Below, piece after piece: positions 9,216-35,960 of a stretch of 64,000 nt of DNA. Origin of the DNA: Cycloclasticus sp. symbiont of Poecilosclerida sp. N. Lineage in GTDB: Bacteria; Pseudomonadota; Gammaproteobacteria; Methylococcales; Cycloclasticaceae. The position numbers were made by a program, and so were the translations under genes. The first letter of the stretch is position 1; every line of letters begins with the position of its first letter. Under the pieces are notes generated by a model. The model did not search any database. It was not told the origin of the DNA and saw only the letters and a program-made list of their open reading frames with translations. The stretch is taken from assembly GCA_002101205.1 (NCBI GenBank), contig LWTM01000077.1, positions 62,001-126,000 on the forward strand, written 5' to 3'.

Positions 9216-9216
9216 T

Positions 9217-10790: not shown

Positions 10791-10794
10791 GATC

Positions 10795-11345
<551 letters not shown>

Positions 11346-11467: not shown

Positions 11468-11557
11468 CATAACAGACCGCTCAAACATCGTTACGGCCGC
11501 AAAAAGCGCGGCCTCCACTGAACTCGCTATCGCTCGCCGTTTAGCGGGGCGTTAGGG
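11468..11557 (+). other. attC-like recombination site (integron cassette type)
   Basis: The left arm TAACAGACCGCTC (11470-11482) pairs imperfectly with the right arm AGCGGGGCGTTA (11543-11554). The right arm ends in GTTAGGG, one base off the GTTRRRY core. Inside lies a GC-rich imperfect stem around GGCCGC-AAAAA-GCGCGGCC. An outer AAC/GTT pair, an imperfect long inverted repeat with unpaired bases, and a length near 90 bp are the hallmarks of attC sites. The nearby minus-strand recombinase tail is oriented as an integron integrase would be. The call is structural only. Confidence 0.5.
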
Positions 11558-11574
11558 ACTAGGAGTTTTTTAAA

Positions 11575-11781
11575 TTGAAAGGAAATAAAGAACAGTTCGT
11601 CGATTATCACGAAGAGTTATTATTCACCGATTTAGCCACATTTAATGAACAATTGGCTGACTGGCTAGTGAAATATAACAGTGTAAGACCGCATAAAGGT
11701 TTAGAGTTAAAAACACCGATGCAGTATATTATTGAAAACAAACCACAGTGTAATATGTGGTGGACTCATACATGGGCTTGA
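11575..11781 (+). pseudogene. C-terminal fragment of an rve-type (IS481/IS3-like) transposase
   Basis: This 68-codon frame reads EQFVDYHEELLFTDLATFNE, then ADWLVKYNSVRPHKGLELKT and PMQYII. It is the end of an integrase-core transposase, where the N-x-x-RPH-x-GL-x-x-x-TP block is diagnostic. No N-terminal half or catalytic DDE set is present, so it is a fragment. It ends 57 bp before the rpsT start and lies in the promoter-proximal region of that gene. Confidence 0.7.
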
Positions 11782-11838
11782 CAAAACGTGTGTTTTTCAT
11801 CAAAATGCGCAATCTTTTACATCACCAGAGGATTTACC

Positions 11839-12108
11839 TTGGCTAACAGTGCACAAGCGTTAAAACGCGCCAAACAAGCAGAAAAAAACCGTCAGCTTAA
11901 TATGTCTGCGCGTACTCGATTACATACAAAAATTAAGCGTGTTGTGTATAGTGCCGATGAAGGTAACACTGAAGCATCTGAAGCTGCTTATAAAGAAGCG
12001 GTGCCTTATATCGATGGCGCTGTTACTAAAGGCCTTATTCACAAAAACAAAGCGGCTCGTTTAAAAAGCAGATTAAATACTCGTATTGTTAAGTTGAAAC
12101 AAGCATAA
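11839..12108 (+). CDS. rpsT: Ribosomal protein S20
   Basis: This is an 89-residue S20. I start it at the TTG at 11839, giving MANSAQALKRAKQAEKNRQL, the normal S20 N-terminus. The ribosome site AGAGGA at 11827-11832 is correctly placed. An in-frame upstream ATG would add 17 unrelated residues. A non-ATG start for rpsT is also known in E. coli, where it takes part in autoregulation of translation, so the same control may apply here. S20 binds 16S rRNA in the small subunit. A strong terminator follows at 12131. Confidence 0.95.
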   Translation: MANSAQALKRAKQAEKNRQLNMSARTRLHTKIKRVVYSADEGNTEASEAAYKEAVPYIDGAVTKGLIHKNKAARLKSRLNTRIVKLKQA

Positions 12109-12130
12109 CGATTATCTTAGATAATTTATA

Positions 12131-12158
12131 AAAAAGCCGACCTAATGGTCGGCTTTTT
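12131..12158 (+). terminator. Rho-independent terminator of rpsT
   Basis: A stem AGCCGACC/GGTCGGCT with a 4-nt loop (TAAT) is followed by TTTTTA. It has an A-run on the left, so it may also work for the converging proB transcript, which ends at 12176. Confidence 0.9.
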
Positions 12159-12175
12159 ATTGCCCTGCTTTTGCT

Positions 12176-13300
12176 TTAAAGCAAAACAAGGTTATCTCGG
12201 TGAATCACTTCAGGTTCCCCGAGATAACCAAGTAAACCCTCAATATCTTTGCTTTTTCTTTGCTTGATGCTTTCGATATCCGCCGAACTATAGTTCACCA
12301 ACCCACGAGCTATTTCTTCACCACTTTGGTCCACACAAGTCACTAATTCACCTCTATCAAAGTCGCCCATTAACGACACTATTCCAACAGGCAGCAGGCT
12401 GACACCAGATTGTTTGAGTGCTTTTGATGCCCCCTCATCTAACACCAATGTCCCTTTAATACCCAAATGTGTCGTCAACCACCGTTTGCGCGCCGAAACA
12501 GGCGCTTCAGCGGGCATAAATAAAGTACCTAGCTTTACCCCCCCTATAACATCCAGAATCACCTTTTGCTTCAAACCAGAAGCGATAACCGTAGCCGTGC
12601 CAGAACGTGCTGCAATGCGTGCCGCTGTTAATTTCGTTTGCATACCACCACGCCCAAAATCTCCTGCTCCTTCACTGGCCGCTGCATCTAACGTCTTATC
12701 CGCAACACTTACCTGCGATAATAATTTTGCACGAGCATTTATTCTAGGGTCAGCATCAAAGAAGCCGTCTTGGTCCGTTAGAATCATCAACAAGTCTGCG
12801 CTCATCAAGTTAGCAATGATCGCCGCCAAGGTGTCGTTGTCACCTACGCGTAGCTCTTCGTTAGCAACCACGTCGTTTTCATTGATGATGGGGACTACCG
12901 AAAGCTCTAATAGTGTTTTTATCGTGGCTCGTGCGTTTAAATATCTCGTCCTATTTGCCAAGTCGTCATGCGTGAGCAACACCTGAGCTGTTTTAAACCC
13001 TTTTGTTTGAAACCCTTCTTCATAGGCCTGAATCAAACCCATTTGCCCTACCGATGCGGCTGCTTGTAATTGTTGAAGTGCATGAGGGCGTGAAGACCAG
13101 CCTAATCTCACCATACCTTCAGCAACTGATCCAGATGAAACAATAATCACGTCAATGCCTCTCGCCTTAAGCTCACTGATTTGCTCAACCCAATGAGTAA
13201 TCGCGGCGCGATTTAAGCCTTGGCCGTTATCCGTCAATACGGCACTGCCAATTTTAATCACACAACACTTTGTTTTTTTTAAATCTTCTCTTGATTTCAT
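12176..13300 (-). CDS. proB: Glutamate 5-kinase with PUA domain
   Basis: This is a 374-residue ProB. An amino-acid kinase domain occupies about residues 1-260, with KIGSAVLTDN at the phosphate-binding N-terminus, VSSGSVAEGM, INENDVVA and DFGRGGMQTKLTAA. A C-terminal PUA domain follows from about 280. It phosphorylates glutamate in the first step of proline synthesis and is usually feedback-inhibited by proline. It lies 27 bp downstream of obgE on the same strand, the common obgE-proB order in Gammaproteobacteria. Length is normal. Confidence 0.95.
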   Translation of the reverse strand: MKSREDLKKTKCCVIKIGSAVLTDNGQGLNRAAITHWVEQISELKARGIDVIIVSSGSVAEGMVRLGWSSRPHALQQLQAAASVGQMGLIQAYEEGFQTKGFKTAQVLLTHDDLANRTRYLNARATIKTLLELSVVPIINENDVVANEELRVGDNDTLAAIIANLMSADLLMILTDQDGFFDADPRINARAKLLSQVSVADKTLDAAASEGAGDFGRGGMQTKLTAARIAARSGTATVIASGLKQKVILDVIGGVKLGTLFMPAEAPVSARKRWLTTHLGIKGTLVLDEGASKALKQSGVSLLPVGIVSLMGDFDRGELVTCVDQSGEEIARGLVNYSSADIESIKQRKSKDIEGLLGYLGEPEVIHRDNLVLL

Positions 13301-13327
13301 AGCAATACGTTAACTAATCTCGTCTGA

Positions 13328-14368
<1,041 letters not shown>

Positions 14369-14404
14369 TCAACTTATTTATTTCTGCTCAGTATTGTTTT
14401 ATCG

Positions 14405-14430
14405 GAGCCTCTGCATAACGCAGCGAGCGC
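14405..14430. repeat. Copy of a short repeat related to the element before acs
   Basis: GAGCCTCTGCATAACGCAGC followed by GAGCGC resembles the reverse complement of 53101-53127 (GAGATCTCTGCATAACGTAG then CGAGCAC). The shared core is CTCTGCATAACG(C/T)AGCGAGC. It looks like a solo end of a small inverted-repeat element, in the obgE upstream region. Confidence 0.5.
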
Positions 14431-14483
14431 CAGCAAAAATGACGAAAAGCGCAGTAGTGATACTGAGGTGTTCTTGTCGCAAT

Positions 14484-14512
14484 AAAAAACCCTGTCTTAG
14501 ACAGGGTTTTTT
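14484..14512. terminator. Bidirectional terminator between rpmA and obgE
   Basis: The stem CCCTGTC/GACAGGG with loop TTA is flanked by A6 and T6. On the minus strand it ends the rplU-rpmA transcript, so obgE-proB probably has its own promoter. Confidence 0.85.
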
Positions 14513-14551
14513 CTATGCACCTGCCGCTATAACCGCAGTGTTCTGCCCTAT

Positions 14552-14812
14552 TTACTGAGCAGTATCAATGCGAATGTATTTTTTGCGTTTCGGACCTTTA
14601 ATTTCAAAAATCACTTTGCCTTTTTCTGTCGCGAATAAAGTATGGTCTTTACCCATACCTACATTTTCGCCAGCATTAAATTTAGTGCCTCTTTGGCGAA
14701 CTAAAATATTACCTGCTAGAACACTTTGGCCGCCATAACGTTTAACGCCCAGTCGTTTTGACTCGGAATCGCGACCATTCTTAGTACTACCGCCTGCTTT
14801 CTTATGAGCCAT
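14552..14812 (-). CDS. rpmA: Ribosomal protein L27
   Basis: This is an 86-residue L27. It begins [20 protein letters not shown], the universal N-terminus that reaches toward the peptidyl transferase centre. [20 protein letters not shown] and GTKFHAG-type (here [10 protein letters not shown]) segments follow. The C-terminus [12 protein letters not shown] is ordinary. It lies 4 bp downstream of rplU, the standard L21-L27 operon. Confidence 0.96.
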
Positions 14813-14816
14813 TCTA

Positions 14817-15272
14817 TTATTCCTTTTCTACTTTAGGTTTTGCCGTTACTTTAGGTTTTGCCGTTACTTTAGGTTTTGCCGTTACTTTAGGTTTTGCCGT
14901 TACTTTAGGTTTTGCCGTTACTTTAGGCTTCTCCGTTACTTTAGGTTTTAACTTAGCCTCACCTTCATTAATTCCAGTAATCGTAACTTCAGTGTAATAC
15001 TGACGGTGCCCCATTTTTTTCATATGGTGCTTTCTGCGCTTAAACTTAATGATGTTGATTTTTTTGTGACGACCTTGAGTTTTAACTTTTGCCGTGACTG
15101 TTGCGCCATCTATATTAGGCGTACCAACTTTTAAACCAGCATCGCTGTTTACTAGTAAGACTGAATCAAAAGTAACATCGCTACCTTCTTCAGTATCTAG
15201 TTTTTCTACTTTAAGAAAATCGCCTTCGGCAACTTTATATTGTTTACCGCCTGTTTGAATGACCGCGTACAT
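14817..15272 (-). CDS. rplU: Ribosomal protein L21 with a repeat-encoded basic tail
   Basis: The first 103 or so residues are a normal L21: [18 protein letters not shown] at the start, and [20 protein letters not shown] near the usual end. The frame then continues for about 45 residues as KPKVTEKP, five KVTAKP units and KVEKE, giving 151 residues in total. Typical bacterial L21 ends near 103. The tail is rich in Lys, Pro, Val and Ala, has no hydrophobic core and is probably unstructured and exposed. It is encoded by an exact 18-bp tandem repeat (see 14830-14937). L21 binds 23S rRNA in the 50S subunit. rpmA follows 4 bp later. Confidence 0.95.
14830..14937 (-). repeat. 18-bp in-frame tandem repeat inside rplU
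   Basis: The unit ACTTTAGGTTTTGCCGTT occurs five times without any change (14830-14919) and once with three changes (14920-14937). Each unit codes six residues (KVTAKP on the coding strand). Exact identity, even at third codon positions, points to recent expansion by slippage. Confidence 0.97.
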
Positions 15273-15363
15273 TGTCTAGAAACTCCCTAAATGATGGGTG
15301 GTTTTGAAAAGAGGCAGATTCTATCCTTTCGCCCGCATTTGGTCAATGCTAATAAACAACCCT

Positions 15364-15478
15364 GTTAGAAGTAAATTCCCTATCCTAGTAATTAAACGTG
15401 ACCCACCTAGATTTATTCTATCCCTATTTGGGGGCTGAATACTGAACCAGACAAATTTTCACGGGAGATTAAAACAGA
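15364..15478 (+). repeat. Copy A of a dispersed repeat (truncated element end)
   Basis: This segment starts GTTAGAAGTAAATT and includes CTGAATACTGAACC and ACAAATTTTCACG. It matches the reverse complement of 51911-52027 and 58115-58232 along about 115 bp. The match stops where a transposase remnant begins at about 15479, so this copy is cut. It lies in the upstream region of rplU. Confidence 0.8.
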
Positions 15479-15757
15479 ATTTGAGACCACCTGTGAACAA
15501 TTGAATATCTCATTATTTGTATTGTCTGCGGCAAGGCGGGCCGCCCAGAAAACCAAAATGGAATGGGTGTGTGGAACGTGCTAAGGGTACTAACCGTTAT
15601 GAGTTCTATCTATATTTATGTGGGAATCTTAACGGCATCAGCACTTAACATTGCGCTAGAAAAGTACCCGTGGTGTTATAACCACTATCGTCCTCACGAT
15701 AGTTTGGATTTGATGATGCCAATGGCGTATTGTCAATACATCAAAGAGACGGCCTAA
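15479..15757 (+). pseudogene. Remnant of IS481-like transposase
   Basis: The region 15273-15917 between rplU and the sigma gene holds no intact gene. From 15479 the plus strand reads EFETTCEQLNISLFVL, matching EFERACEALNISLFVL of the related relic at 27930. It ends in CYNHYRPHDSLDLMMP followed by AYCQYI, the rve C-terminus (YNxxRPHxxL). Frame changes and missing catalytic parts show it is dead. From 15758 to 15917 I see only a short open tail (EEAIAEALLSVL) of unknown origin. Confidence 0.72.
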
Positions 15758-15917
15758 ATGTCCTAGGTGTAGTGAACCCGATCACGTGTTTGTATTCTCG
15801 TTTAGGGCATACCAAAATGGCCGTTGAGGAAGCAATAGCAGAGGCGCTACTGAGTGTTCTTTAAACAATAATATAAAGGGAATTTAGCTGTAAGATAGTA
15901 AAAACAATTAAGGTCTA

Positions 15918-16412
15918 GTGTTGCAAGAGAAGCAAAAACAACTTGAATATGAACGATTAGTTTTAGTGCATAGCGATGATCTTTTTCGTTATGCGCTTTG
16001 GCGTTGCCGCGATAAAAGCATGGCGGAAGACTTGGTTCAAGAAACGTGTCTGCGGGCGTGGAAATCGTTAGATAAGTTACGTGATGTGTCTTCTAGCAAA
16101 GCGTGGCTGATGACTATTTTACGCAATGAACATGCTCGAGTGTATGTGCGTTATCAACCGGATATGGTGAGTATGGAGTTAGATACGGTGGCTTTGAAAG
16201 ATACAGCCAATGACACCAGTGCAGAAGCTTTCGCGCTGAAGTTGGCGTTGTTTGACTTGGCTGAAGAGTATAAAGAGCCATTGTTGTTACAGGTCATCGG
16301 TGGGCTTAGTTGTGAAGAAATTGCATCGGTTTGCAATATTACGAAAAGTGCAGCGATGACGCGGCTGTTTAGAGCTAAGCAAAAATTAAGAGAGGTATTA
16401 CGACCTGAATAA
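15918..16412 (+). CDS. ECF-type RNA polymerase sigma factor
   Basis: This 164-residue protein has sigma-70 region 2 (DLFRYALWRCRDKSMAEDLV then QETCLRAWKSLDKL, about residues 19-55). Region 4 has a helix-turn-helix (LLLQVIGGLSCEEIASVCNI, about 119-138). There is no region 1 or 3, as expected for ECF sigma factors. It starts with GTG at 15918; TTG at 15921 is an alternative. It sits 17 bp before a gene for a zinc-finger-type membrane anti-sigma factor, forming a standard pair. The inducing signal is not evident. Confidence 0.92.
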   Translation: MLQEKQKQLEYERLVLVHSDDLFRYALWRCRDKSMAEDLVQETCLRAWKSLDKLRDVSSSKAWLMTILRNEHARVYVRYQPDMVSMELDTVALKDTANDTSAEAFALKLALFDLAEEYKEPLLLQVIGGLSCEEIASVCNITKSAAMTRLFRAKQKLREVLRPE

Positions 16413-16429
16413 GGTCAAACGAGTGCAAA

Positions 16430-17125
16430 ATGCAATGTAAAGAGTTTGAATTTGAATATATAGCTGTGCCCAATGAAATAGCAGGTGATGCGTGCGAGCA
16501 TTTACAAGCTTGTCCGACGTGCCGGCTATTTGCGGAACAGCAAGCAATGTTTGAAAAACGATTGGATGATGTTATTCAGTGTGATGTAGCAGAAGGTTTT
16601 CGACACCTTGTTCGCGAGTATGTCGTCAATAAACGTCTTTCATTTTGGACGGCACCTAGATGTTCACTGGCCTTGGCCGCCTCTTTATTTATAGCAATAG
16701 GTTTGGTGACGGGGCATCAAGTTACAACAAGGCCAAATTTTCCAATCGATAGAATGGTTGTAGAGCATTTTGATTATGATGGTAGTGATTCTATACAAGC
16801 GTCGCATCAAATAAATTCGCAAGAATTGGCGCAAATAAGTCAACAATTTGGCGTGAGAGTAACATTAGAAAAGGGCATCAGCTATGCGGAGAAATGCTTG
16901 ATTGGTGATAGTTTTGGGTTGCATATGGTATATCAATACGATGGACAACCTATAACCGTTATTTATATGCCAGAGATGACCCTAGATGCGACTTTACCAT
17001 TTTATTACGCCGGTCTTAAAGGTTGGGTGAAACCAATGAATAGGGGTTCAATAGCCGTACTTGCCGGCTCCACAGCGAATCTTCCTGAGGAGGATTTTGC
17101 TGACCGTGCCATTAAATGGCTTTAA
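16430..17125 (+). CDS. Membrane anti-sigma factor (DUF3379-like)
   Basis: This 231-residue protein starts MQCKEFEFEY. A short cytosolic domain contains ACEHLQACPTC, a His/Cys arrangement resembling zinc-binding anti-sigma domains. One membrane helix follows at about residues 77-96 (CSLALAASLFIAIGLVTGH). The rest would be periplasmic. Its position directly after an ECF sigma gene is the main support. The likely role is to hold the sigma factor at the membrane until an envelope signal arrives. DUF3379 is my best guess for the C-terminal part. Confidence 0.78.
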   Translation: MQCKEFEFEYIAVPNEIAGDACEHLQACPTCRLFAEQQAMFEKRLDDVIQCDVAEGFRHLVREYVVNKRLSFWTAPRCSLALAASLFIAIGLVTGHQVTTRPNFPIDRMVVEHFDYDGSDSIQASHQINSQELAQISQQFGVRVTLEKGISYAEKCLIGDSFGLHMVYQYDGQPITVIYMPEMTLDATLPFYYAGLKGWVKPMNRGSIAVLAGSTANLPEEDFADRAIKWL

Positions 17126-17527
17126 AAAATAAATTAATTTGGTGCTTTTGTAGGGAGTGCGTTTCCACGCTTGTGTCATAACGCTAATCGCAGTGTGAGA
17201 ACAAAAGAACATTCATAAAGAACTCTTATCTGGCTTATTCTGGCGTTGATTGTCTCAGTGGATAAACGTCCACAGCTTTCGGCTCGCGTCAGTAAGGCTT
17301 ACTTCCTTTACGGCTAAATAATATTGATTTGCTCATTTAAAAGGCGAGTACAAACGCGCCATCTTGTTGCTTATTGTCGAGAGCCAGCGGTATAGTCCTA
17401 ACTGAAACATGATGGCAATAGCTGTACTTCTTTGAGTGCCCGCTATGCGGCGAAGAAAAGTTATATCCATGGTGGTAAGATGGCTGAAAAATGGCAATAG
17501 CTAGGTCATAATGAAGAGAGATTTATT
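17126..17527. other. Intergenic stretch without recognised content
   Basis: These 400 bp between the anti-sigma and MutS-like genes contain several stop codons in all frames. I see no conserved protein fragment, RNA or clear terminator. The codon-like run near 17280 (SARVSKAYFLYG then stop) could be a gene relic but is not recognisable. Confidence 0.4.
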
Positions 17528-19150
17528 GTGAAAAAGACACCAAAAATGCGCGAATTATTTCGCCATATTCGAGACTTAATGTTAGGAGAAGAAACCGTTA
17601 GAAGGAATCCTAGCACGGCAGACGGCGATGGCTTAATGGACCAGAATTCGTATCGCGTGATTGAGGTGGATAAATTGTTAGATACGGTTGACCACGCGCA
17701 GACGTTAGTGGGCAAGGACGTTATTCATAAAGCGTTTTCGCAGCACGTTTTAACGCCGCAGCAGATTGAAGAAAAGCAACAAGCGCTTAAAGAGTTGTCA
17801 GATGATGATGAGCTTAGAGGGGATGTGAATCGTTTGTTAGAGACAGCGGCTGAAAAGGAATACGTGTTTTATCGCCTTTTGCTCTCAACCTTTGTGGGTT
17901 TTATTTTTTCACCGGATGAGGACCGTTTAGAAGAGGCCGGCTACGGCTATGGCGTGTACGACAAAGCAACGGCATTTTTACCAGAAGCGGTTACACAAGC
18001 ACAAAACATAAAAAAGCCGAAGAGTGTTTACATACAAGGTTTAATTGATGAGCTGATAATATTCAGTGGGACAAAGCCTTATAAGCTGATGGTCGGGCCG
18101 GTGTATATGTTAATGGGTAAGTTTTTATTAAAGAACGAAAGGTCTTGGAAAACGCCAGCGATTAAATTAAGAACCTCTCTTTTCAAGCCAGCATTGTTAC
18201 CACTAGCTTTTCTAGCAATGGTTTTAATGCCCTATATTTTAAATGTGTCGATAGCGCAATTCACGGTGTTTTCGTTGATACCTTTCATCATCTTAGTGTT
18301 TTACGTGCCAGTGGTTAGCGACTTTGATAAACAGGCGTTTATTCTTCCTTTACGACGTATTTTCGCACGTTCACAAGACGTTGAACGGGCCGTTTATGCA
18401 ATTGGTCAGCTGGACGAACTAATGTCTTATCACCTATATGCAGAAAAAAATGTGCATCAAACTGTTTTGCCAACGATGGTGGTCTCCAGTTCACAATACA
18501 TTGATGTGACGGCGGCAGTAAATCCCGTATTGGGCTTTTCGGATGAGCAATATGTCGCTAACGATTTTGACACGAGCCAGCATAATCTAGCCTTTTTCAC
18601 GGGGCCAAATAGTGGCGGCAAAACCGCGTTTTGTAAGACTTTAGCGCAAATTCAGTTGTTATCTCAAGTGGGTTGTTATGTTCCAGCGGAAAAGGCAACG
18701 CTCTCGATAGCAGACAGAATTTATTATCAAGCCCCTGAAATTAATTCGTTAGATCATGAGGTGGGTCGTTTTGGCACAGAACTTAAACGCACGCGAGATA
18801 TTTTCACCGCAGCAACGCCTAATAGCTTGGTGATTTTAGATGAATTAGCTGAAGGTACAACGCATAAAGAAAAGCTAGAAACGTCATTAATAATTTTAGA
18901 GGCATTTAGACGGCTAGGTTCGTTGACGATTTTAGTGACGCATAATCATGAGCTTGCTGAGCATTACCTTGAAGGCGATTTGGCGGTTTTTAGACAAGTG
19001 GCGTTTGACGGCGAGCGCCTAACGCATAAGTTTATCAATGGTATATCAGTGATTAGCCATGCTGATTTAGTCGCCCGTTCAGTTGGGTTTTCAAAAGAGG
19101 ATGTCGAGCGCATCCTAGAAGACAAATTGGTGGCGGCAACCGCTTCGTGA
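17528..19150 (+). CDS. Membrane-associated MutS-like ATPase
   Basis: This 540-residue protein has a C-terminal MutS-type ATPase. It shows Walker A GPNSGGKTAF near residue 359, Walker B LVILDELAEGTTHKE near 434, and the ILVTHNHELAEH switch near 475. Before it is a helical region with two hydrophobic segments around residues 218-262 (LLPLAFLAMVLMPYIL and FSLIPFIILVFYVPVV). Mismatch-binding and clamp domains of true MutS are absent. It belongs to the poorly studied membrane-bearing MutS homologues, so a mismatch repair role should not be assumed. It starts with GTG, and its stop overlaps the MOSC gene start by 4 bp, implying joint translation. Confidence 0.82.
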   Translation: MKKTPKMRELFRHIRDLMLGEETVRRNPSTADGDGLMDQNSYRVIEVDKLLDTVDHAQTLVGKDVIHKAFSQHVLTPQQIEEKQQALKELSDDDELRGDVNRLLETAAEKEYVFYRLLLSTFVGFIFSPDEDRLEEAGYGYGVYDKATAFLPEAVTQAQNIKKPKSVYIQGLIDELIIFSGTKPYKLMVGPVYMLMGKFLLKNERSWKTPAIKLRTSLFKPALLPLAFLAMVLMPYILNVSIAQFTVFSLIPFIILVFYVPVVSDFDKQAFILPLRRIFARSQDVERAVYAIGQLDELMSYHLYAEKNVHQTVLPTMVVSSSQYIDVTAAVNPVLGFSDEQYVANDFDTSQHNLAFFTGPNSGGKTAFCKTLAQIQLLSQVGCYVPAEKATLSIADRIYYQAPEINSLDHEVGRFGTELKRTRDIFTAATPNSLVILDELAEGTTHKEKLETSLIILEAFRRLGSLTILVTHNHELAEHYLEGDLAVFRQVAFDGERLTHKFINGISVISHADLVARSVGFSKEDVERILEDKLVAATAS

Positions 19151-27013: not shown

Positions 27014-27365
27014 AAGGTTGATTTTAGTGCCTATTCATCTATGCAGTGAGTACTCATTTGATTATTCACTTTCCAAGGAATGCGTAACAAAGACATGCTG
27101 GTTGTTGCAATAGAGCACAAAACGATTTGGCCACGAAAAGTTACGCTTTATATTATAGTCCTCTGAAGTAAGTGTTCATTACGGCTATTCTAACTGAAAA
27201 TGATAAATTTCTAATGAAGGATGTAGTATATTTTAAATTATTGAAAAGGGTCATGCCAAGTTAAGAGGCTCTTTTTTGAACATTTTGAGCAAAATATTAT
27301 AGGCCTTGCTCTCGATTATTAAATCTAAACTCACACTGTTTAAGGTGTAAATTGAGCATACCTTT

Positions 27366-27570
27366 GATCTTCACCCGTCGTATTTTAGCATAGCCCACAA
27401 CGACTCAATTCCATTGATATGACTTATGTTTCTAAAAGACTCTTGGGCCATGCTGTACTCTAAAATGCTTCTTATAACCAAAACCGACAAATCCGTTATA
27501 ACCGCGCCAACCATCAAAATGAATAACGCTATGTCTGGGTTCAGATAGAAGTGAAACTTTTTGAGATGTG
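27366..27570 (-). pseudogene. Remnant of an IS1595-family transposase
   Basis: The 1.2-kb gap between the Deg protease and pmoA starts with about 350 bp in which I see nothing. On the minus strand it then reads VIHFDGWRGYNGFVGFGYKK then HFRVQHG, and after a frame change RNISHINGIESLWAMLKYDG. The DGWRGY...G..HINGIES block is the C-terminal catalytic part of IS1595-type transposases. The rest of the gene is missing. Confidence 0.78.
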
Positions 27571-27618
27571 AAGCTTGGGTAGCCTGTGAGTTGTTGACTA
27601 AACACAGGAGACTAGCCG

Positions 27619-28121
27619 ATGCAAATCAAAAGTCTGCGAATCAAATCATACAAAAGTTGATCTGTTGCCGATACTCTCAGCGCAGAAACTGTTGTTCGGA
27701 TAAAGAAGCTTGAACTCTACGAGCAGCTAAAATCAGAAGGTTGTTCGGTGGCTCTTCGCCTACGAGCCATAGGCTGGTTAAAAGCCACCTGCCCTGTGAC
27801 AGGGACAACCATTATGCGCAGTTACCGTTGTGCCACTAGCTGCAATGCCAAAAGCTTTCTTGAATACCTGCTGGAGCAACTACCCTTCGATTTGCTCGCC
27901 ATATAGATGGATGGTGGTAGTGAGTTTAGGGATGAGTTTGAGCGGGCATGCGAAGCGCTGAACATATCCCTATTTGTCTTACCGCCTGCGGCAAGGCGGC
28001 CGCGAATGAGGCCAAAATAAAATGGCCGTGTGGGCCGACTATAACCACTGTCGACCCCATCATGGCTTGGGATTAGAAACACCAATGAGTTATTATCAAC
28101 AACTCATGCAGGGTGCCTGAT
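27619..28121 (+). pseudogene. Degenerate IS481-like transposase directly upstream of pmoA
   Basis: From ATG 27619 the plus strand reads MQIKSLRIKSYKS, a stop, then VADTLSAETVVRIKKLELYE, continuing to ALRLRAIGWLKATC. This is the N-terminal helix-turn-helix part of an IS481-like transposase. After a large internal deletion it resumes with DGGSEFRDEFERACEALNIS (rve domain, near 27911), a stop, and the RxH-type C-terminus. It ends about 30 bp before the pmoA promoter candidate. It is non-functional. Confidence 0.78.
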
Positions 28122-28153
28122 TTGTCTCACAGATACTGGACTCATACAAAGGG

Positions 28154-28182
28154 TTGCTTTGTTAGTATGAAATGTTTATGAT
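28154..28182 (+). promoter_or_regulatory. Candidate sigma-70 promoter of pmoA
   Basis: TTGCTT (28154-28159) and TATGAT (28177-28182) are separated by 17 bp. They lie about 70 bp before the pmoA start and just beyond the transposase relic. A clean ribosome site AGGAGG follows at 28247-28252. Confidence 0.5.
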
Positions 28183-28255
28183 TGACGAAGCATTGTGCTT
28201 AATAGTTTGGGCATGGTTCGAATAAAGGTTTTTTTATAATAATTAGGAGGTCGAG

Positions 28256-28999
28256 ATGAGCGCAGTGCAATCTGCTATTACTACTGCTGAGCAACAGCAT
28301 AGAATTTACAAAGCATTTGATTGGATTATTATTCCAATTGTTGTTTTAGTTATTATTGGTGCATTCCATATTCACGCGATGTTAACCATGGGTGATTGGG
28401 ATTTTTGGATTGATTGGAAAGATAGACGCTGGTGGGTAACGGTGACACCCATTACATTGATTTTCTTCCCTGCGGCACTTCACGCCTTATTATGGCAAAA
28501 CTTTAGGCTTCCGTTTGGTGCAACACTAGCTTGTGGAGGTTTGTTAATTGGAGAATGGGTAAACAGAGTGGTTAACTTCGTTGGTTGGGCTTATTTCCCA
28601 CTTAACATGGTCGTTCCCGCTGAAATCATTCCAATGGCCTTATGTTTAGACGCCATTCTTATTATTAGCCGCAGTTTAACGGTAACAGGCGTTATTGGTT
28701 CCATGGTTTGGGGCGTTATCTTTTACCCTGCAAACTGGGCACTAATTGCTCCATTCCACGTGCCTATTGAATACAATGGCGTGATGATGTCAGTTGCTGA
28801 TTTAATTGGTTACAACTATGTAAGAACAGGTACACCTGAATACATCCGCATTATTGAAGAAGGCACATTGCGTACCTTCGGCGAGGATGTAACGCCGGTA
28901 TCTGCATTCTTTGCGGGCTTCATATCTGTATTTATGTACTTTATCTGGATTGGTCTAGGTAACTGGTTCGCAAAAACAACATGGGCTAAACGCATTTAG
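28256..28999 (+). CDS. pmoA: Particulate copper monooxygenase subunit A
   Basis: This 247-residue integral membrane protein has exactly the length of PmoA of Methylococcus. It contains the family signature HIHAMLTMGDWDFW. The polar residues His38, Met42, Asp47, Asp49 and Glu100, noted in PmoA structures as a hydrophilic cluster, are all at the same positions here. It has seven hydrophobic segments. The GYNYVRTGTPEYIRIIEEGT motif near residue 190 is intact. It would oxidise methane, short alkanes or possibly ammonia in the inner membrane with PmoB and PmoC. pmoB follows after a hairpin; pmoC is not adjacent. The substrate cannot be told by eye. Confidence 0.95.
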   Translation: MSAVQSAITTAEQQHRIYKAFDWIIIPIVVLVIIGAFHIHAMLTMGDWDFWIDWKDRRWWVTVTPITLIFFPAALHALLWQNFRLPFGATLACGGLLIGEWVNRVVNFVGWAYFPLNMVVPAEIIPMALCLDAILIISRSLTVTGVIGSMVWGVIFYPANWALIAPFHVPIEYNGVMMSVADLIGYNYVRTGTPEYIRIIEEGTLRTFGEDVTPVSAFFAGFISVFMYFIWIGLGNWFAKTTWAKRI

Positions 29000-29042: not shown

Positions 29043-29077
29043 ATAACTTAATAAATAAAAATACATTGAGGAAAGAA

Positions 29078-30313
29078 ATGTTAAATATTAAAAAAACAAT
29101 ATTGATGCTAATTGCGTTGATGGTAGCTTGCATCGCGTTATATGCAGCGCCAGCAATGGCTCATGGTGAGAAATCACAGGCAGCTTACTTAAGAATGCGT
29201 ACGCTATTATGGTATGACGTAGAAGTTTCTACAGTTAAGCTTGAAGTAAATGAAGAATTAACAATGACAGGTAAATTTTACTGGTTCTATGATTGGCCAA
29301 ATAATATTGCTAAACCTGAAGTTGCGTTCTTAAACATAGGTATTCCAGGCCCAGTATTTGTAAGAAAAGCATCTTACATTAACGGTGTATCGGGTACTAA
29401 CTCAACACGCTTTGATATTGGCGAAACATACGAGTTTAAAGTTATTCTTAAAGCTCGCCGTCCAGCTAGAATCCATATGCACGCGTTAATGAATGTTAAA
29501 GAAGCCGGTCCATTAATCGGCCCTGGTCGTTGGGTTGAAGTAACAGGCAATCAGGCTGACTTCACAAACGAAATAACAACATTAACTGGTGAAACAATTG
29601 ACCTTGAAACTTATGGTCTGGAAAATGCAGTTAAATGGCATATTTTCTGGGGTGTAATCGCCGCAGCTTGGCTGTTGTACTGGATTTTCCAAGGTCCAAT
29701 TTTAATTCCTCGTTATAAGAAAGTGAAATTGTTGAATGAAGATGCGGATGACATGATATCACCGACAGACCGCATGGTTGGTCTTGTAATGTTAATCGGT
29801 ACTTTCGTAGTTGTTACCTGGAGTTACTTTAATGCATATCAAGAGTTCCCAATAACGATTCCACTACAAAGTGGCCAAATCACAATACCAGCTCTTCCTG
29901 ATGCTGCACGTGGTGTAACCGCTGAAGTGGTAGATGCTAGGTACCGTGTTCCTGGTCGTGCGTTAGAGTATACGTTAAAGGTAACTAATAACACGAATTC
30001 GCCCATTAAATTAGGCGAATACACAGCAGCTAACATCCGTTGGATGAACCCTGAAGTGTCTGTAGCTCTACCAGCTGATAGCCATGACCCCGTAGCGAGT
30101 AATGGTTTGTCTTATGAAGGTGGAGCCGTGATGCCAGGCGAAACAAAACTTCTTAAAGTCACCTGTACAGATGCCGCTTGGGAAACATACCGCCTAGCTA
30201 AATTGATTTACGATCCAGATAGTCGTTTCGGTGGATTGGTTATGTTCTTCGATGAAGAAGGTAATCGTTCAGTGATTGCTATTGGTGGACCATTAATACC
30301 TGTATTTATTTAA
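29078..30313 (+). CDS. pmoB: Particulate copper monooxygenase subunit B
   Basis: This is a 411-residue PmoB. I start at ATG 29078 (GAGGA ribosome site just upstream), not at an in-frame TTG at 29066. A signal peptide ends APAMA at residue 28, so the mature protein begins at His29. His29, His133 and His135 (HMH) correspond, with a constant offset of four, to the copper ligands His33, His137 and His139 of Methylococcus PmoB. Two cupredoxin-like domains flank two membrane helices (about 187-208 and 231-252). It would be the periplasmic copper-bearing part of the enzyme. A strong terminator at 30335 follows. Confidence 0.95.
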   Translation: MLNIKKTILMLIALMVACIALYAAPAMAHGEKSQAAYLRMRTLLWYDVEVSTVKLEVNEELTMTGKFYWFYDWPNNIAKPEVAFLNIGIPGPVFVRKASYINGVSGTNSTRFDIGETYEFKVILKARRPARIHMHALMNVKEAGPLIGPGRWVEVTGNQADFTNEITTLTGETIDLETYGLENAVKWHIFWGVIAAAWLLYWIFQGPILIPRYKKVKLLNEDADDMISPTDRMVGLVMLIGTFVVVTWSYFNAYQEFPITIPLQSGQITIPALPDAARGVTAEVVDARYRVPGRALEYTLKVTNNTNSPIKLGEYTAANIRWMNPEVSVALPADSHDPVASNGLSYEGGAVMPGETKLLKVTCTDAAWETYRLAKLIYDPDSRFGGLVMFFDEEGNRSVIAIGGPLIPVFI

Positions 30314-30334: not shown

Positions 30335-30365
30335 AAAAAAGCCCCGCTTAGCGGGGCTTTTTTTT
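30335..30365 (+). terminator. Rho-independent terminator after pmoB
   Basis: The stem AAAAGCCCCGC/GCGGGGCTTTT with loop TTA is followed by a long T-run. It separates pmoA-pmoB from the next operon. Confidence 0.92.
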
Positions 30366-30438
30366 ATTTAGAGAATTTTGCTCGAACTAAATCATTTATA
30401 ATGGGTCAGATAAATTCAACTATAACGGAGACGATAGA

Positions 30439-31035
30439 ATGTATAAGATTGTATATGCAGCAATTATGCTGATGGTTAGCACTGCTTCATGGAGTCATGG
30501 TGGTGTTATGAATGAGGGGAATGAGTGTAAATTACGCGTTGGCCCTTACGTAATGAATTTTTCTGGTTATCAGTTGAATAACAATGCACCAATGCAATTC
30601 TGCGATGATTTACCAACAACCGGAGAGTCATATATTGTTTTAGACTTCATCGATAATAAGTTACGCGATATGACTGTTAATTTTCGAGTTATCAAGTCGG
30701 ATACGGCCGCTTTAGGGACGTCAGAAGATGGTCTTGTCGTTGACTCTGAATTAAAAGAAACGCCATTTTTTGAAATACCAGCTAAAAGATATCCGTATGG
30801 AACGATGAAAATCACGCAACAATTTACCGAAAAAGGGCACTTTGTTGGTTATGTAATTGTAGAGGGTGAGAATGAGAAGTTTATTTCACGTTTTCCATTT
30901 TCTGTCGGTTACCCAGAAGCAGGGATTCCTTCGGCATTGAAAATCCCAATTGCAATGTTTGTGATTATCGTAATTATTATGATTTGGTTTGTGCGTAAGA
31001 AGCCAGTTAAGTTCAATGAGAAAAGAGACGATTAA
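30439..31035 (+). CDS. Membrane-anchored periplasmic protein of unknown function with predicted N-terminal histidine
   Basis: This 198-residue protein has a signal peptide (residues 1-19, ending TASWS), a periplasmic domain and a C-terminal membrane helix (about 168-185) followed by a short basic tail. If cleaved after Ser19, the mature protein starts His20-Gly-Gly, the same type of start as mature PmoB (His-Gly-Glu). Cys30 and Cys55 (NECKL, QFCDDLP) may form a disulfide. It starts an operon with a multicopper oxidase and cupredoxin. A TATAAT box lies at 30397. I do not recognise a named family. A copper or redox-accessory role is inferred from context only. Confidence 0.85.
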   Translation: MYKIVYAAIMLMVSTASWSHGGVMNEGNECKLRVGPYVMNFSGYQLNNNAPMQFCDDLPTTGESYIVLDFIDNKLRDMTVNFRVIKSDTAALGTSEDGLVVDSELKETPFFEIPAKRYPYGTMKITQQFTEKGHFVGYVIVEGENEKFISRFPFSVGYPEAGIPSALKIPIAMFVIIVIIMIWFVRKKPVKFNEKRDD

Positions 31036-31055
31036 CAAGTAGTTAAATATCGCAA

Positions 31056-32765
31056 ATGAAAAAATTCTCAGTATTAGGGTTAGTACTAAGCGCAGTAGTG
31101 TTGAGTGCTACTGCGCTTTTTCTTTATGATCCATCTATATTGTATTCAAAGTTCTACGAATACACAGGTATGCCCTCTTATGTAAAAGCCCCTGATCCTT
31201 TGCCTAAGGCGGAACTAACGAAGGAAAAGATGTGTGATGAACAATATCCAGAGTGGCGTAAAAACTATACGATTGGTGGGGTAGATATACAGGCATCAGA
31301 CGCTTGTAACCCCGATAACCCGTATGAAGTCGCCGCATTTGTACTGGGTACCAATAATGTAATTATGCCTGTGCTAATGCGTACGCAGTTATCAGATGAT
31401 TCGGTTGTTAAAACAGACGACCTTGATGGCGATGGGGATCCTGACAATATAGTTATTCGTGTAGAAGTGGCCGAGCTTAATGGCCGTTCACCGGACGAAG
31501 AAGGCTTCATTCCTAGTTATCAAATTGCACCAGGCATCAAACCAGGCGCTTGGGTTTTTGCACCTAAAAGTCGAGGTATGTCGACGATTAATAGGGATAA
31601 CTTAAATGCAAATCATTTGCTAAGACTACCGTCTGCGCCCATACGCGTTGAAGCTGGTGATAATGTCACGTTGATTTTAGAAAACACACATTATTTTCCA
31701 CATACGATTCATTTACATGGTGTAGACCATACGTATGAAGGTAATGACGGTGTTCCTCAAACCAGTGAAAAGATGGCGATGCCTGGCGAACAACACGTGT
31801 ATAAAATAAAGCCAAGGCATGCAGGCACCATGCTTTACCACTGCCATGTGCAAGTACATGTTCATATGATGATGGGCTTACAAGGCCTTTTTATCGTCGA
31901 AGAGAATAAGCCGAATAATTGGGTGCAAACATTTAATGTAGGCGCTGGTAAGGTACGTAAACCATCAGTCGGTGTTTTAGCAGATTATGAACAAGAGTAC
32001 GACATGCATTATCAAGCCATCGACACATCGCTAAACAATTTAATTCAAACATCGAATGACCCGCGTCAACTAGCGAAAAGAATGAATCGTTTATACGACA
32101 TTACTGATGGAACGGATGATTATTTTTTGCTCAATGGTCGCTCTTTTCCCTATACGTTAAGGGAGTCATTGATTACAGTGGAACCAAACCAACATACAAA
32201 AATGCGCATATTGAACGGTACGGCGGAAGTCCTTGCATTACATACACACGGGCATAAAGCGACAATAACTAGTTACGATGGTGTGGACGTTAATCCTGTT
32301 GCCCAGATTACAAGAGACGTCTACTCAGTATCGCCTGCACAACGCATTGACTTGGATTTATTTACTCAAAATGATGGTCTGCATTCCTATGGCGAAGGTG
32401 TTTGGTTAATGCATGACCATGCTGAACGCGCTATAACAAGTGATGGTATTGCACCCGGCGGCAATGTTTCTCAAATTGTTTATAGAAAATATTTAAACAA
32501 GAACGCGATGGCATCCACGATGGGTGAAGACCTGAGCGCTTACTTTACGCCTGAATATTACAGAGGAGAGGTGCCTTCGTGGACGAATGCAGACGCTTTT
32601 GGTTTCTTTGACGATGTGGGCGGTAAAACAGTCGATTCTTATAAAGACGTATTGCTATTGATTGTACTCGGCATGTTATTGGGAGTGCTTTTTCTATTAT
32701 TGAATGCCTTATACAGTTTCTTACACGCCACATCAATTAAGATTAAAGACAGGAGTTCACGATGA
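31056..32765 (+). CDS. Membrane-anchored multicopper oxidase, type 1 site in first domain
   Basis: This is a 569-residue protein with an N-terminal helix (about 5-25) and a C-terminal membrane helix (about 532-555). Copper motifs are clear. PHTIHLHG (HxxHxH, His218/His220 in the HLH) and H262-C263-H264 with His268 and Met273 lie in the first half. HTHGH (396-400) and H453-D-H455 lie in the second. The Cys-His-Met type 1 site is thus in domain 1, like type C two-domain multicopper oxidases. Residues near 121-131 carry DLDGDGDPDN, a calcium-loop-like insert. It likely oxidises a periplasmic copper or electron donor. The stop overlaps the cupredoxin start (ATGA). Confidence 0.88.
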   Translation: MKKFSVLGLVLSAVVLSATALFLYDPSILYSKFYEYTGMPSYVKAPDPLPKAELTKEKMCDEQYPEWRKNYTIGGVDIQASDACNPDNPYEVAAFVLGTNNVIMPVLMRTQLSDDSVVKTDDLDGDGDPDNIVIRVEVAELNGRSPDEEGFIPSYQIAPGIKPGAWVFAPKSRGMSTINRDNLNANHLLRLPSAPIRVEAGDNVTLILENTHYFPHTIHLHGVDHTYEGNDGVPQTSEKMAMPGEQHVYKIKPRHAGTMLYHCHVQVHVHMMMGLQGLFIVEENKPNNWVQTFNVGAGKVRKPSVGVLADYEQEYDMHYQAIDTSLNNLIQTSNDPRQLAKRMNRLYDITDGTDDYFLLNGRSFPYTLRESLITVEPNQHTKMRILNGTAEVLALHTHGHKATITSYDGVDVNPVAQITRDVYSVSPAQRIDLDLFTQNDGLHSYGEGVWLMHDHAERAITSDGIAPGGNVSQIVYRKYLNKNAMASTMGEDLSAYFTPEYYRGEVPSWTNADAFGFFDDVGGKTVDSYKDVLLLIVLGMLLGVLFLLLNALYSFLHATSIKIKDRSSR

Positions 32766-33388
32766 GAAATGTCTTTTTAATCCTTCTTGTCTTACCGTTT
32801 GCTAATGTTTCCCATGCCACGATGAGAATGGGCGAATGGGGCATGGTAATGAACGAGAACGTGAAAGAGTTACCGCAAGGCTGCACGAATATTGCCGGTG
32901 TTAAAGAAATCACGATTAAGGCAGGCAGAGAATACGCAAAAGAGTTTCCCGGGACTATTTTTGGATACAGTCAGCACGAGTTTGTTTTACCTAAATGCAC
33001 ACAGATTAACGTTAAGTTCATTAACGAAGATAATATCCGACACCAATTTATGATTCACGGTTTGCCGACGTATTTGCACCCACAAGGTATGTTCCATATG
33101 GAATTGTATGCAAAGGGTGAGACGCAGGGAAGTTTTATTACACCGGCTGCGGATGCAACCTACTTAGCGCATTGTGATGTAGCCCAGCATATGGAAAAAG
33201 GAATGAAAGCCCAGGTTGTTGTAGGCGATGGCAGTGGTGATTTACCGTCTGTTCCTGGTATTTCAGGACAATTAAATAAAGATAGCTATGGCATAGATAT
33301 GAGCGCTGGAAATATCTCTCTATCGCTTGTACTGCTCCTTTTGGGGCTTTCAAGTTGCCTGTTTTTCTTTATTTGGCGTAAAAAGTAA
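32762..33388 (+). CDS. Membrane-anchored cupredoxin (type 1 copper protein)
   Basis: This is a 208-residue protein. A signal peptide (residues 1-18, ending SHA after residue 19) is followed by a cupredoxin fold and a C-terminal membrane helix (about 184-203). Type 1 copper ligands can be read as His94 (RHQFMIHG), Cys138, His143 and Met148 in HCDVAQHMEKGM (C-x4-H-x4-M spacing). Several extra Met and His residues surround the site. It should carry electrons or copper at the periplasmic face, most likely with the multicopper oxidase, whose gene overlaps its start by 4 bp. Confidence 0.88.
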   Translation: MRNVFLILLVLPFANVSHATMRMGEWGMVMNENVKELPQGCTNIAGVKEITIKAGREYAKEFPGTIFGYSQHEFVLPKCTQINVKFINEDNIRHQFMIHGLPTYLHPQGMFHMELYAKGETQGSFITPAADATYLAHCDVAQHMEKGMKAQVVVGDGSGDLPSVPGISGQLNKDSYGIDMSAGNISLSLVLLLLGLSSCLFFFIWRKK

Positions 33389-33400
33389 ACTTAACTACCT

Positions 33401-33835
33401 ATGTTTGATGGTTTGGTTGAAACTTATGGTGTGTTGGGGTTATTTATAAGTGCCTTTATCTCCTCCACATTAGCGCCTGGCGGATCTGAAGCCGTTTTAG
33501 CCTATTTAATTATTAATAACGAACATGATTCTTATTACTTGGTTATCGTTGCTACGATAGGTAATACGCTAGGTGCGCTTACAACATACTATATTGGTTA
33601 CTTAACCTCTTCTAAGTTCCCACCTGAAAAAACCAACATGAAGCATTTTGATCGAGCCAATATAGCCATCCAGAAGTATGGAAGCGTTGCGTTATTATTG
33701 AGTTGGTTACCGATTATTGGAGATGCTCTGTGCTTGGCTGCCGGCTGGGTTAGACTTCATGTTGTAAAATCGCTGAGCTTTATTTTTCTGGGCAAGCTTG
33801 CTCGATATTCCTTAATCGCCCTTATGCTCAGTTAA
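33401..33835 (+). CDS. YqaA/DedA-like membrane protein
   Basis: This is a 144-residue protein with about four hydrophobic segments. It starts GLVETYGVLGLFISAFISST and has the LAPGGSEAVL motif and the later YGSVALLLSWLPIIGDALCL segment, typical of the YqaA branch of the DedA/VTT superfamily. The DedA family flips lipids or polyprenyl phosphates in several bacteria, but YqaA itself is poorly studied. It is the fourth gene of the copper operon, 12 bp after the cupredoxin gene. Its role there is unknown. Confidence 0.85.
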   Translation: MFDGLVETYGVLGLFISAFISSTLAPGGSEAVLAYLIINNEHDSYYLVIVATIGNTLGALTTYYIGYLTSSKFPPEKTNMKHFDRANIAIQKYGSVALLLSWLPIIGDALCLAAGWVRLHVVKSLSFIFLGKLARYSLIALMLS

Positions 33836-33839
33836 CAAC

Positions 33840-34748
33840 ATGGCGGATAATTTGATCACTATTGAACAAGATATTGATTATCGTACGGGCAGTCGTGATG
33901 ATTTAATCAGTGATATTGCCGATTATTATGATCAAAGTTACTGGGACTACAGAACGTCGTGGCTAAACAGCAAAAACTTAGCTATACATTATGGTTATTG
34001 GTCTGAAAACACAAAATCACACAGTGATTCATTAATCGAAATGAACGAGGTAGTGGCGGGACAGCTTGATTTAAAACCGGGCGACCATGTGCTTGATGCG
34101 GGCTGTGGAATTGGCGGTAGTTCTATTTGGCTGGCCGAGAATTACGGTGTGAAGGTAACTGGCATAACGGTCTCACCTACGCAAATTACTCAGGCCAATA
34201 AGAACGCTAAGAAACGTGGCGTTGACCATCTCGTTAACTTTAAATTGGAAGATTATACGAAAACCTCTTTTGTTGATGAATCATTTGATCACGTGTGGGC
34301 GCTTGAAAGTATTTGTTATGCACTCAAGAAGTCGGACTTCGTTAAAGAAGCGTATCGCGTACTTAAGAAAGGCGGTTGTTTCGCCATAGCCGATGGTTTT
34401 GCAAGTAAACGTGAACTGACACCTGCTGAATGGAAGCACGTACTAAAAGTGCTCAATGGTTGGTCTATGCCTAATATGTCATTGCCCTGTGAATTTAAAT
34501 CTTTTATGCAAGACAGTGCGTTTGAAGATATTTATTACAAAGATATTACACAAAACATATTGCCTTCGTCAAAACGGCTTTATTACATTGCTTTACTGAC
34601 TTACCCTCTGGAAAAGATCATGAGCTTTTTGCGCTTAAGAACTGGCGTTCAAAGTAGTAATTTTAATGCCTGTTTTGGCCAGTACCACGTACTGCACGAC
34701 GGGATTGGCTGTTATGGATTGTTCTCAGCTAAAAAGGCGGTTGAGTAG
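33840..34748 (+). CDS. SAM-dependent methyltransferase (class I, sterol/tocopherol MT-like)
   Basis: This 302-residue cytosolic protein has a class I methyltransferase core. Motif I VLDAGCGIGGSS (residues 84-95) binds S-adenosylmethionine, followed by GVKVTGITVSPTQITQAN and LEDYTKTSFVDESFDHVWAL, EAYRVLKKGG. The arrangement is closest by eye to sterol- or tocopherol-type and small-molecule C/O-methyltransferases. The substrate is unknown. It begins 4 bp after the YqaA-like gene, so it is the last gene of the five-gene operon. A lipid or quinone substrate is only a guess. Confidence 0.85.
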   Translation: MADNLITIEQDIDYRTGSRDDLISDIADYYDQSYWDYRTSWLNSKNLAIHYGYWSENTKSHSDSLIEMNEVVAGQLDLKPGDHVLDAGCGIGGSSIWLAENYGVKVTGITVSPTQITQANKNAKKRGVDHLVNFKLEDYTKTSFVDESFDHVWALESICYALKKSDFVKEAYRVLKKGGCFAIADGFASKRELTPAEWKHVLKVLNGWSMPNMSLPCEFKSFMQDSAFEDIYYKDITQNILPSSKRLYYIALLTYPLEKIMSFLRLRTGVQSSNFNACFGQYHVLHDGIGCYGLFSAKKAVE

Positions 34749-34778: not shown

Positions 34779-35339
34779 TTAAAATCTGATTAACATTATT
34801 TCGTCTTGGCGTTTTTTCCATTCTTTAAAAGCCATTACGCTTAACGATGTGTCTTGATAAACCATTACAAGTTGTAGGTTCTGTGGCGATACGGATTGCT
34901 CGCACTCGATGGTGATTTGACGCTGGTTATGTTCTCGAATTTTCCATTTACTTTCCCCTTTGCTCACCTTAAATTGAGGTGAAGTACCAAGTGTATTAAG
35001 CGTTTTTTCAATTAATTGATCACGTTGCTCCAAACAACTCGCTTTAGCCAACTCTCGCGGACTTTTAACCGTGATGCCATAGATCACATGGGATTTCGGT
35101 GTCGTTGAATATTCATATTTAACAAAGCGCTTATCTTCGATATCTGGTGTGAAAACAATGGCCATATTCTCACTGACATAGCCTTCGGGTAAGTTTTTGT
35201 CCACGGTGTTAAGCTTTATGCCAAAAGCACCGTTGATAGAAAATGTTTTGCCAGAATTTCTTGCAGCGTTATCCTCGCCTCCACAAGCGGCTAGGAGCGC
35301 TAGCAAAGTGACAATCAATGTGGTCTTGATAATATTCAT
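34779..35339 (-). CDS. Putative lipoprotein of unknown function
   Basis: This 186-residue protein has a lipoprotein signal peptide with lipobox LLAAC (Cys at residue 19), so it is likely lipid-anchored. The mature part starts GGEDNAARNSGK and contains two cysteines (near 103 and 150: ASCLEQR, IECEQS) that could pair. I recognise no family. It is convergent with the copper operon, ending 30 bp after the methyltransferase. No terminator was found between them. Confidence 0.8.
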   Translation of the reverse strand: MNIIKTTLIVTLLALLAACGGEDNAARNSGKTFSINGAFGIKLNTVDKNLPEGYVSENMAIVFTPDIEDKRFVKYEYSTTPKSHVIYGITVKSPRELAKASCLEQRDQLIEKTLNTLGTSPQFKVSKGESKWKIREHNQRQITIECEQSVSPQNLQLVMVYQDTSLSVMAFKEWKKRQDEIMLIRF

Positions 35340-35414: not shown

Positions 35415-35960
35415 CTAGACAATTTCTAAATTCTCAAAATGCTGCTTTTCATACTTAATTGGTGACAATCCGTCATTATTACCACGATGTTGTTTAGGTT
35501 TGTAGAAAAACTCAATATAATCGAATATTTCAGCTCGAGCTTCTGCTCGTGATTTAAATATTTGTCGTTTTATACGACCCATTTTTAATAATAAAAAGAA
35601 GCTTTCAGCAACGGTATTGTCATGACAGTTGCCTCGCAACTCAGACTGTTCTCAAGGTTGTTTTCACGTAAGAACTGTCGCCAGTCGCGGCAGGTGTGTT
35701 GAATATCTTGATCTGAATGAACAAGCACCTTCTGCTTAGGCTTCCTTCGCCATATTGCCATTAATGACGCGTCAATCACTAAGTCAGCTTTTAGGTCGGC
35801 TTTCATACTCCAGCTAACAACTTGCCGTGAAAACAAATCAATCACAACGCTCAGGTACAACCAGCCTTCATGAGTTCGTGTGTACGTGAAATCAGTGACC
35901 CATATACTACTTTTCGCTGTGAACTGGCGCGTTATAATGAAAGCACCGTTGTTTTTCAGC
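35415..35960 (-). pseudogene. Broken IS3-family transposase (OrfB part)
   Basis: The 700 bp between the lipoprotein gene and sucC hold an IS3-type rve domain on the minus strand. It reads SSIWVTDFTYTRTHEGWLYL, then VVIDLFSRQVVSWSM, VLVHSDQD, RGNCHDNTVAESFFLLLK and the C-terminal SPIKYEKQHFE. At least two frame changes occur (near 35640 and 35930), and the N-terminal half with OrfA is missing. It is inactive. The remaining 100 bp form the sucC upstream region. Confidence 0.85.

Follow-up and report, generated by a model that had tools for sequence, protein, structure and literature searches.

Particulate methane monooxygenase (pMMO) and ammonia monooxygenase (AMO) lose most or all of their activity on isolation, which has raised the suspicion that protein components are missing (PMC6189053). 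Among the proteins linked to such copper membrane monooxygenases (CuMMOs) is PmoD, and disruption of the pmoD within a pmo operon resulted in a copper-dependent growth defect (PMC6189053). A CuA site is formed only by PmoDs with the motif Cx7MxHxnC; those with Cx8MxnC are commonly encoded near multicopper oxidases (MCOs), and the tested member binds copper and forms no CuA (PMC6189053). PmoD stands beside an MCO also in Methylacidiphilum and in Methylococcus capsulatus, where expression of the PmoD gene MCA2130 goes down without copper (PMC6688271, citing expression data). Here we describe a related locus from the Cycloclasticus sp. symbiont of Poecilosclerida sp. N, in a stretch of 64,000 nucleotides of contig LWTM01000077.1 (the window). 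It is an operon of five genes on the + strand (30439-34748), downstream of pmoA and pmoB, of which the first three encode a PmoD homologue, an MCO and a membrane-anchored cupredoxin (the trio). The trio is CuMMO-associated: it co-occurs with CuMMO genes beyond chance and is largely absent without them.

PmoD itself and PmoD beside an MCO were thus already known (PMC6189053, PMC6688271). The preliminary description of the window saw no named system of this composition. This stands for the trio, as neither the conserved unit, nor its extension to Cycloclasticus, Nitrosomonas and Binatota, nor its form linked to a caa3-type oxidase in place of a CuMMO was found in the open-licence literature, and we regard these three points as new; it does not stand for the 198-aa protein, which is a PmoD by profile and predicted fold, or for the PmoD-MCO adjacency, which is published. 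The paper on M. capsulatus and Methylacidiphilum names the PmoD-MCO pair only, with no cupredoxin, VTT protein or methyltransferase (PMC6688271); the M. capsulatus pair is likened to ours by description, not by MCO subfamily. The loci MCA2129/MCA2130 are not mentioned in the main text of the M. capsulatus copper transcriptome or in that of the CRISPRi essentiality paper.

The window protein shares with PmoD/AmoD (6cpd; PMC6189053) the sequence family, fold, two conserved cysteines, C-terminal transmembrane (TM) helix and link to CuMMO genomes. It differs in having Cx8MxnC instead of Cx7MxHxnC, an invariant HGG, the company of MCO and cupredoxin, and a terminator of its own towards pmoB. The extended Methylosinus operon pmoCAB-pmoD-copC-copD-pCuAC (PMC6189053) likewise has CuMMO genes, PmoD and periplasmic copper proteins close together, whereas the window has MCO and cupredoxin and no copC, copD or pCuAC.

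The operon and its three copper proteins

The five open reading frames are tightly packed, as first described, with spacings of +20, -4, +12 and +4 bp, and the first lies 125 bp from pmoB. A terminator and a TATAAT box had been proposed to divide the operon from pmoB, and both are conserved in seven species of the genus Cycloclasticus. The strong intrinsic terminator (30335-30363, + strand), a 13-pair stem followed by a T run, is kept in all seven, with partly different bases in the stem of one (G035). Just 3′ of it lies a promoter-like block, GAACTA-N15-GTC with TATAAT inside (30384-30407, + strand, exact match in the window), which is conserved in the relatives; six of the seven have TATAAT and the seventh TACAAT. 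A consensus scan of the window did not score a sigma-70 promoter after the terminator. Since terminator and TATAAT block are kept in these species, the operon is most likely a transcription unit separate from pmoAB. The five-gene order is the same in the loci compared from ten other genomes of the genus, without exception; four of these genomes (G006, G043, G050 and G039) have the five genes with no adjacent pmoAB. The arrangement is therefore far from chance, even with a broken MCO and PmoD in one genome, and we consider the five-gene operon confirmed. The broken copy is in G039, an otherwise near-complete Cycloclasticus metagenome-assembled genome (MAG), where frame breaks split MCO and PmoD (C12:436348-438633; L113); this genome retains a more distant pmoA at another place.

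The first gene (30439-31035, + strand) encodes 198 aa with a signal peptide, HGG at the predicted mature N-terminus, a Cx8MxnC motif and one C-terminal TM helix (160-192 by hydropathy). It belongs to no Pfam or NCBIfam family; NCBIfam leaves four relatives unnamed as well and gives a fifth only a chance match below cut-off. A profile built from 19 relatives gave a single credible match in the PDB, PmoD 6cpd (E=4.1e-26), and 6cpd is also the top Foldseek match (E=1.1e-10, TMt 0.82) of the structure prediction (mean pLDDT 78). The HGG, C30, Y44, C55 and P59 are invariant in the aligned MCO-linked PmoDs. The cysteine pair (C30/C55) and the C-terminal TM helix of PmoD/AmoD are both present. On profile and structure prediction, the protein is a PmoD homologue. 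A CuA-type (AmoE-like) PmoD was rejected, as the motif reads C-x8-M-N-F...C and not Cx7MxHxnC.

The second gene (31056-32765, + strand) encodes an MCO of the two-domain type (569 aa; PF07732 75.8 bits, PF07731 69 bits). Its best solved relative is 3g5w (E=8.6e-38), which we take to be the two-domain MCO of Nitrosomonas europaea; the match is confined to residues 185-480, with both domains aligned. The alignment contains two cupredoxin domains, one type-1 site and the trinuclear HxH motifs, and the putative copper ligands are invariant in 15 sequences (H216, H219/H221, H262-C263-H264, H270, M273, H396/398/400 and H453/H455). Two-domain MCOs assemble as trimers with the trinuclear site between monomers; the model of the window MCO, predicted as a monomer from 15 sequences, was too poor for use (mean pLDDT 61), so the copper sites rest on the alignment. 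The core domains and the type-1 spacing C-x6-H-x2-M in domain 1 are shared with 3g5w, whereas the window MCO adds an N-terminal domain of about 130 aa, unmatched by 3g5w, with Cys60/Cys84 and a DxDGDxD loop (DLDGDGDPD), a longer linker and predicted TM anchors at both ends (3-29 and 526-559 by hydropathy).

The third gene (32762-33388, + strand) encodes the cupredoxin of 208 aa (PF07731 28.6 bits) with a type-1 site formed by H94, C138, H143 and M148. These ligands are invariant in 17 sequences together with C41/C79 and two Met residues near the N-terminus, M28 and M30. A C-terminal TM helix is predicted by hydropathy at 178-207.

Association with copper monooxygenases

A scan of the genome collection recovered 584 relatives of the MCO, and the locus counts given here refer to the best 80 that were named. 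The cupredoxin gene is present in 79/80 loci and PmoD in 64/80. As to the last two genes of the operon, a VTT gene occurs in 44/80 and a methyltransferase is nearby in about 22/80, at times on the other strand; in the loci read, both occurred only in Cycloclasticus and some of the Methylococcales. An indivisible five-gene unit was therefore rejected. The idea of five genes as one system stands for PmoD, MCO and cupredoxin, which are broadly conserved, and not for the VTT and methyltransferase genes, which on this distribution are looser, lineage-specific additions. Hosts of the trio include Cycloclasticus, Methylococcales and Binatota, and Nitrosomonas is listed among the MCO hosts, with MCO-cupredoxin and no PmoD found close by. 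Viral contigs held no MCO relatives, and plasmids held generic MCOs only, below 60% identity and never with 80% coverage.

The preliminary description tied the periplasmic copper proteins to the monooxygenase and proposed to look for co-occurrence with pmo genes across species. The link is seen both in gene neighbourhoods and in genome content. Genes of the pmo/amo type lie within 10 kb of the MCO in 17/80 loci, including Binatota, one MAG of the Hyphomicrobiales and two further MAGs of Gammaproteobacteria; the order in Binatota is pmoD-pmoC-A-B-pmoD-MCO-cupredoxin. Most methanotrophs have the module at a locus apart from pmoCAB. Among 274 Gammaproteobacteria sampled across the class, 9 genomes carry the MCO subfamily (E<=1e-50) and 9 carry PmoA, of which 7 carry the two together (both, either alone and neither 7/2/2/263; Fisher P=6e-11, or 1e-6 without the home order, P values that ignore shared ancestry). 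Within the order, 193 of 201 sampled genomes have an MCO (E<=1e-40) and 165 have PmoA. All 13 genomes of the genus with the MCO also have CuMMO genes (G059 by the B subunit), and 5 have neither; published data also describe cultivated Cycloclasticus without phmo, the other genomes analysed carrying it (PMC12510462). PmoA was present in the same genome in 25 of 35 named carriers tested, the remainder being mostly MAGs from PmoA-carrying groups. Absence calls are affected by MAG incompleteness. We also came across a record titled Klebsiella pneumoniae MAG (L136) with pmoCAB, PmoD, MCO and cupredoxin; it clusters with Binatota-like sequences and unnamed Proteobacteria, and its label is probably wrong.

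The exceptions to co-occurrence are G244, L180 and G363. Wide occurrence without a copper monooxygenase had been named as a result that would speak against the proposed system. The module is largely absent without CuMMO genes; the informative exception is one lineage, represented by G244 (single contig, 99% complete; L198 8545-17367) and L180, an Arenicellaceae MAG (9214-18259). Both have PmoD-MCO-cupredoxin, and no CuMMO was detected in searches for A, B and C in G244 and for A in L180. Their trio adjoins a UbiA-type ctaB, coxB with cytochrome c domains, coxA and coxC, a caa3-type oxidase operon. In a quick tree their MCOs form a sister pair that falls with CuMMO-linked MCOs. The trio can therefore be placed next to another membrane enzyme that contains copper. 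These PmoDs are at odds with the published view that every PmoD found came from a genome with CuMMO, and the range of PmoD is extended both to this lineage and to light-hydrocarbon degraders.

Possible functions of the trio

As the trio recurs with copper monooxygenases of methane, ammonia and alkane oxidisers, it is likely a helper of this hard-to-purify type of enzyme. Its tracking of CuMMOs in Cycloclasticus, Methylococcales, Nitrosomonas and Binatota offers a concrete list of candidates for the missing components. CuMMO and caa3-type oxidase have periplasmic copper sites and redox traffic in common. Because the trio also stands beside the latter, we prefer general copper handling over an electron donor for CuMMO only, and the same exception keeps this claim close to an even call: our favoured reading, at slightly under an even chance, is a periplasmic module that handles copper for membrane copper enzymes. 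Family membership, ligand conservation, operon structure and CuMMO association were read from the sequences, and from here on each functional step, and which way electrons or copper would flow, is our inference. The three proteins, predicted to be anchored in the inner membrane, would load copper into the periplasmic sites of membrane enzymes, keep it loaded or set its redox state, the enzyme served here being presumably PmoABC, the monooxygenase for light hydrocarbons of this marine Cycloclasticus-type bacterium. PmoD, with its N-terminal His and Cx8M motif, would hold copper and pass it on. The MCO, with a complete set of type-1 and trinuclear ligands, could re-oxidise copper or a reduced partner with O2, and the cupredoxin could be a single-electron shuttle between the two. 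In favour of this reading are the PmoD assignment, the conservation of the trio, its co-occurrence with CuMMOs and, from the literature, the copper-dependent defect on pmoD disruption (PMC6189053) and the lowered MCA2130 expression in the absence of copper (PMC6688271).

Several observations weigh against this reading. A blue-copper cupredoxin suits electron transfer equally well, and the MCO (3.3% Met) lacks the Met-rich insert that marks a cuprous oxidase. Some CuMMO genomes (G228 and G412) lack the MCO. The PmoD-site motif varies, being Cx8M here, Cx9H in many Methylococcaceae, Cx8MH in f7 and another in many other Methylococcales. Finally, the pmoD disrupted in the published work is of the in-operon class, whose alphaproteobacterial members carry Cx7MxHxnC. 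A more far-reaching version of the copper-handling reading is that the trio would be an unnamed cross-phylum maturation or redox module needed for full CuMMO activity, would make up part of what pMMO and AMO lose on purification and would be exchangeable between CuMMO and caa3-type oxidase; we hold this only tentatively and consider it rather unlikely.

Electron transfer would be the strongest alternative, though a doubtful one. Here the monooxygenase, or the cytochrome oxidase in the caa3-linked lineage, would exchange electrons with cupredoxin and MCO in either direction, the MCO serving as a valve for electrons or as a side branch that reduces O2. The intact type-1 ligand sets in both proteins, the predicted membrane anchors of all three and the association with CuMMO or, in other genomes, with a caa3-type operon that encodes cytochrome c domains agree with it, and the physiological reductant of pMMO is generally regarded as an open question. 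However, an O2-reducing MCO would drain electrons, and the module lies apart from pmoCAB in most methanotrophs. PmoDs of the Cx8MxnC class, moreover, form no CuA (PMC6189053).

Copper tolerance, in which periplasmic oxidation of Cu(I) would protect cells where copper builds up to supply the monooxygenase, had also been suggested. The presence of an MCO together with proteins of copper-binding type and the drop of MCA2130 expression without copper (PMC6688271) would fit. It is nevertheless disfavoured and seems improbable, because no CopA/CueO equivalog and no copB, copC or copD is found in the operon and the distribution follows the monooxygenase. The MCO shares its domains with CopA and CueO and scores far below their curated cut-offs (TIGR01480 40.5 vs 479, CueO 28.6 vs 525), has no Met-rich insert and stands without cop partners. 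A copper-resistance operon was accordingly rejected, none of the five identified genes being of copB/copC/copD type. Hitch-hiking of a functionless neighbourhood with CuMMO genes by shared transfer, to which the separate loci in several Cycloclasticus genomes and most methanotrophs might point, is very improbable and already strained, since co-occurrence persists with unlinked loci (as in the order) and across phyla, and Cycloclasticus without CuMMO also lack the module.

Neighbouring genes and regulatory blocks

The fourth gene (33401-33835, + strand) encodes a membrane protein of the VTT/DedA superfamily (144 aa; PF09335 42.2 bits, cut-off 33.9). An UptA transporter was rejected, with an equivalog score of 30 against a cut-off of 250. 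The fifth (33840-34748, + strand) is predicted to be a class-I S-adenosylmethionine (SAM)-dependent methyltransferase (302 aa; PF08241 77.1 bits) and reached no specific equivalog cut-off among those shown. The suggestion that these two modify a lipid or quinone finds no support in this analysis. In many Methylococcales clusters, a multi-TM protein of about 250 aa without Pfam family (F18) follows the VTT gene, often before the methyltransferase (L089 10796-11542, L092, L098, L103, L120).

The genome carrying the window is 1.9 Mb in size and 98% complete. Cycloclasticus genomes are its nearest named relatives by the MCO gene, among them symbionts from Bathymodiolus heckerae and from a poecilosclerid sponge. 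CuMMO subunit A (pmoA, 28256-28999, + strand; PF02461 365 bits, AmoA_BACT 361 with cut-off 290, TIGR03080 334 with cut-off 318) and subunit B (pmoB, 29066-30313, + strand, listed start TTG; PF04744 487 bits, AmoB_BACT 536 bits) are over cut-off in the window, and C is present on another contig. The usual place of pmoC, 5′ of pmoA, holds apparent insertion-sequence fragments (27014-28255), and no pmoC remnant was found there. A full-length pmoC stands alone on contig C74 (112657-113346), with a second, partial match at C74:84245-84625.

Five genomes share a strongly conserved leader of about 140 bases 5′ of pmoC (L208, L066-L069), including that of the lone pmoC of this genome, with further conserved blocks. 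Over a variable spacer, GAACTA-N16-ACTA is conserved 5′ of pmoC in five genomes. Its pairing with the block before the pmoD operon resembles an ECF-type arrangement. The pattern was spotted post hoc, and co-regulation of pmoC and the pmoD operon through a shared GAACTA-type block is suggestive only. As a regulon marker GAACTA-N15-GWC was rejected, not being enriched genome-wide (17 matches vs 34 for the reversed control).

The region 3′ of the operon contains, on the - strand, a predicted lipoprotein of 186 aa without family (34779-35339), which has tandem duplicates in several relatives. A fragment resembling an insertion-sequence integrase reading frame (35585-35860, - strand) lies between the operon region and sucC.

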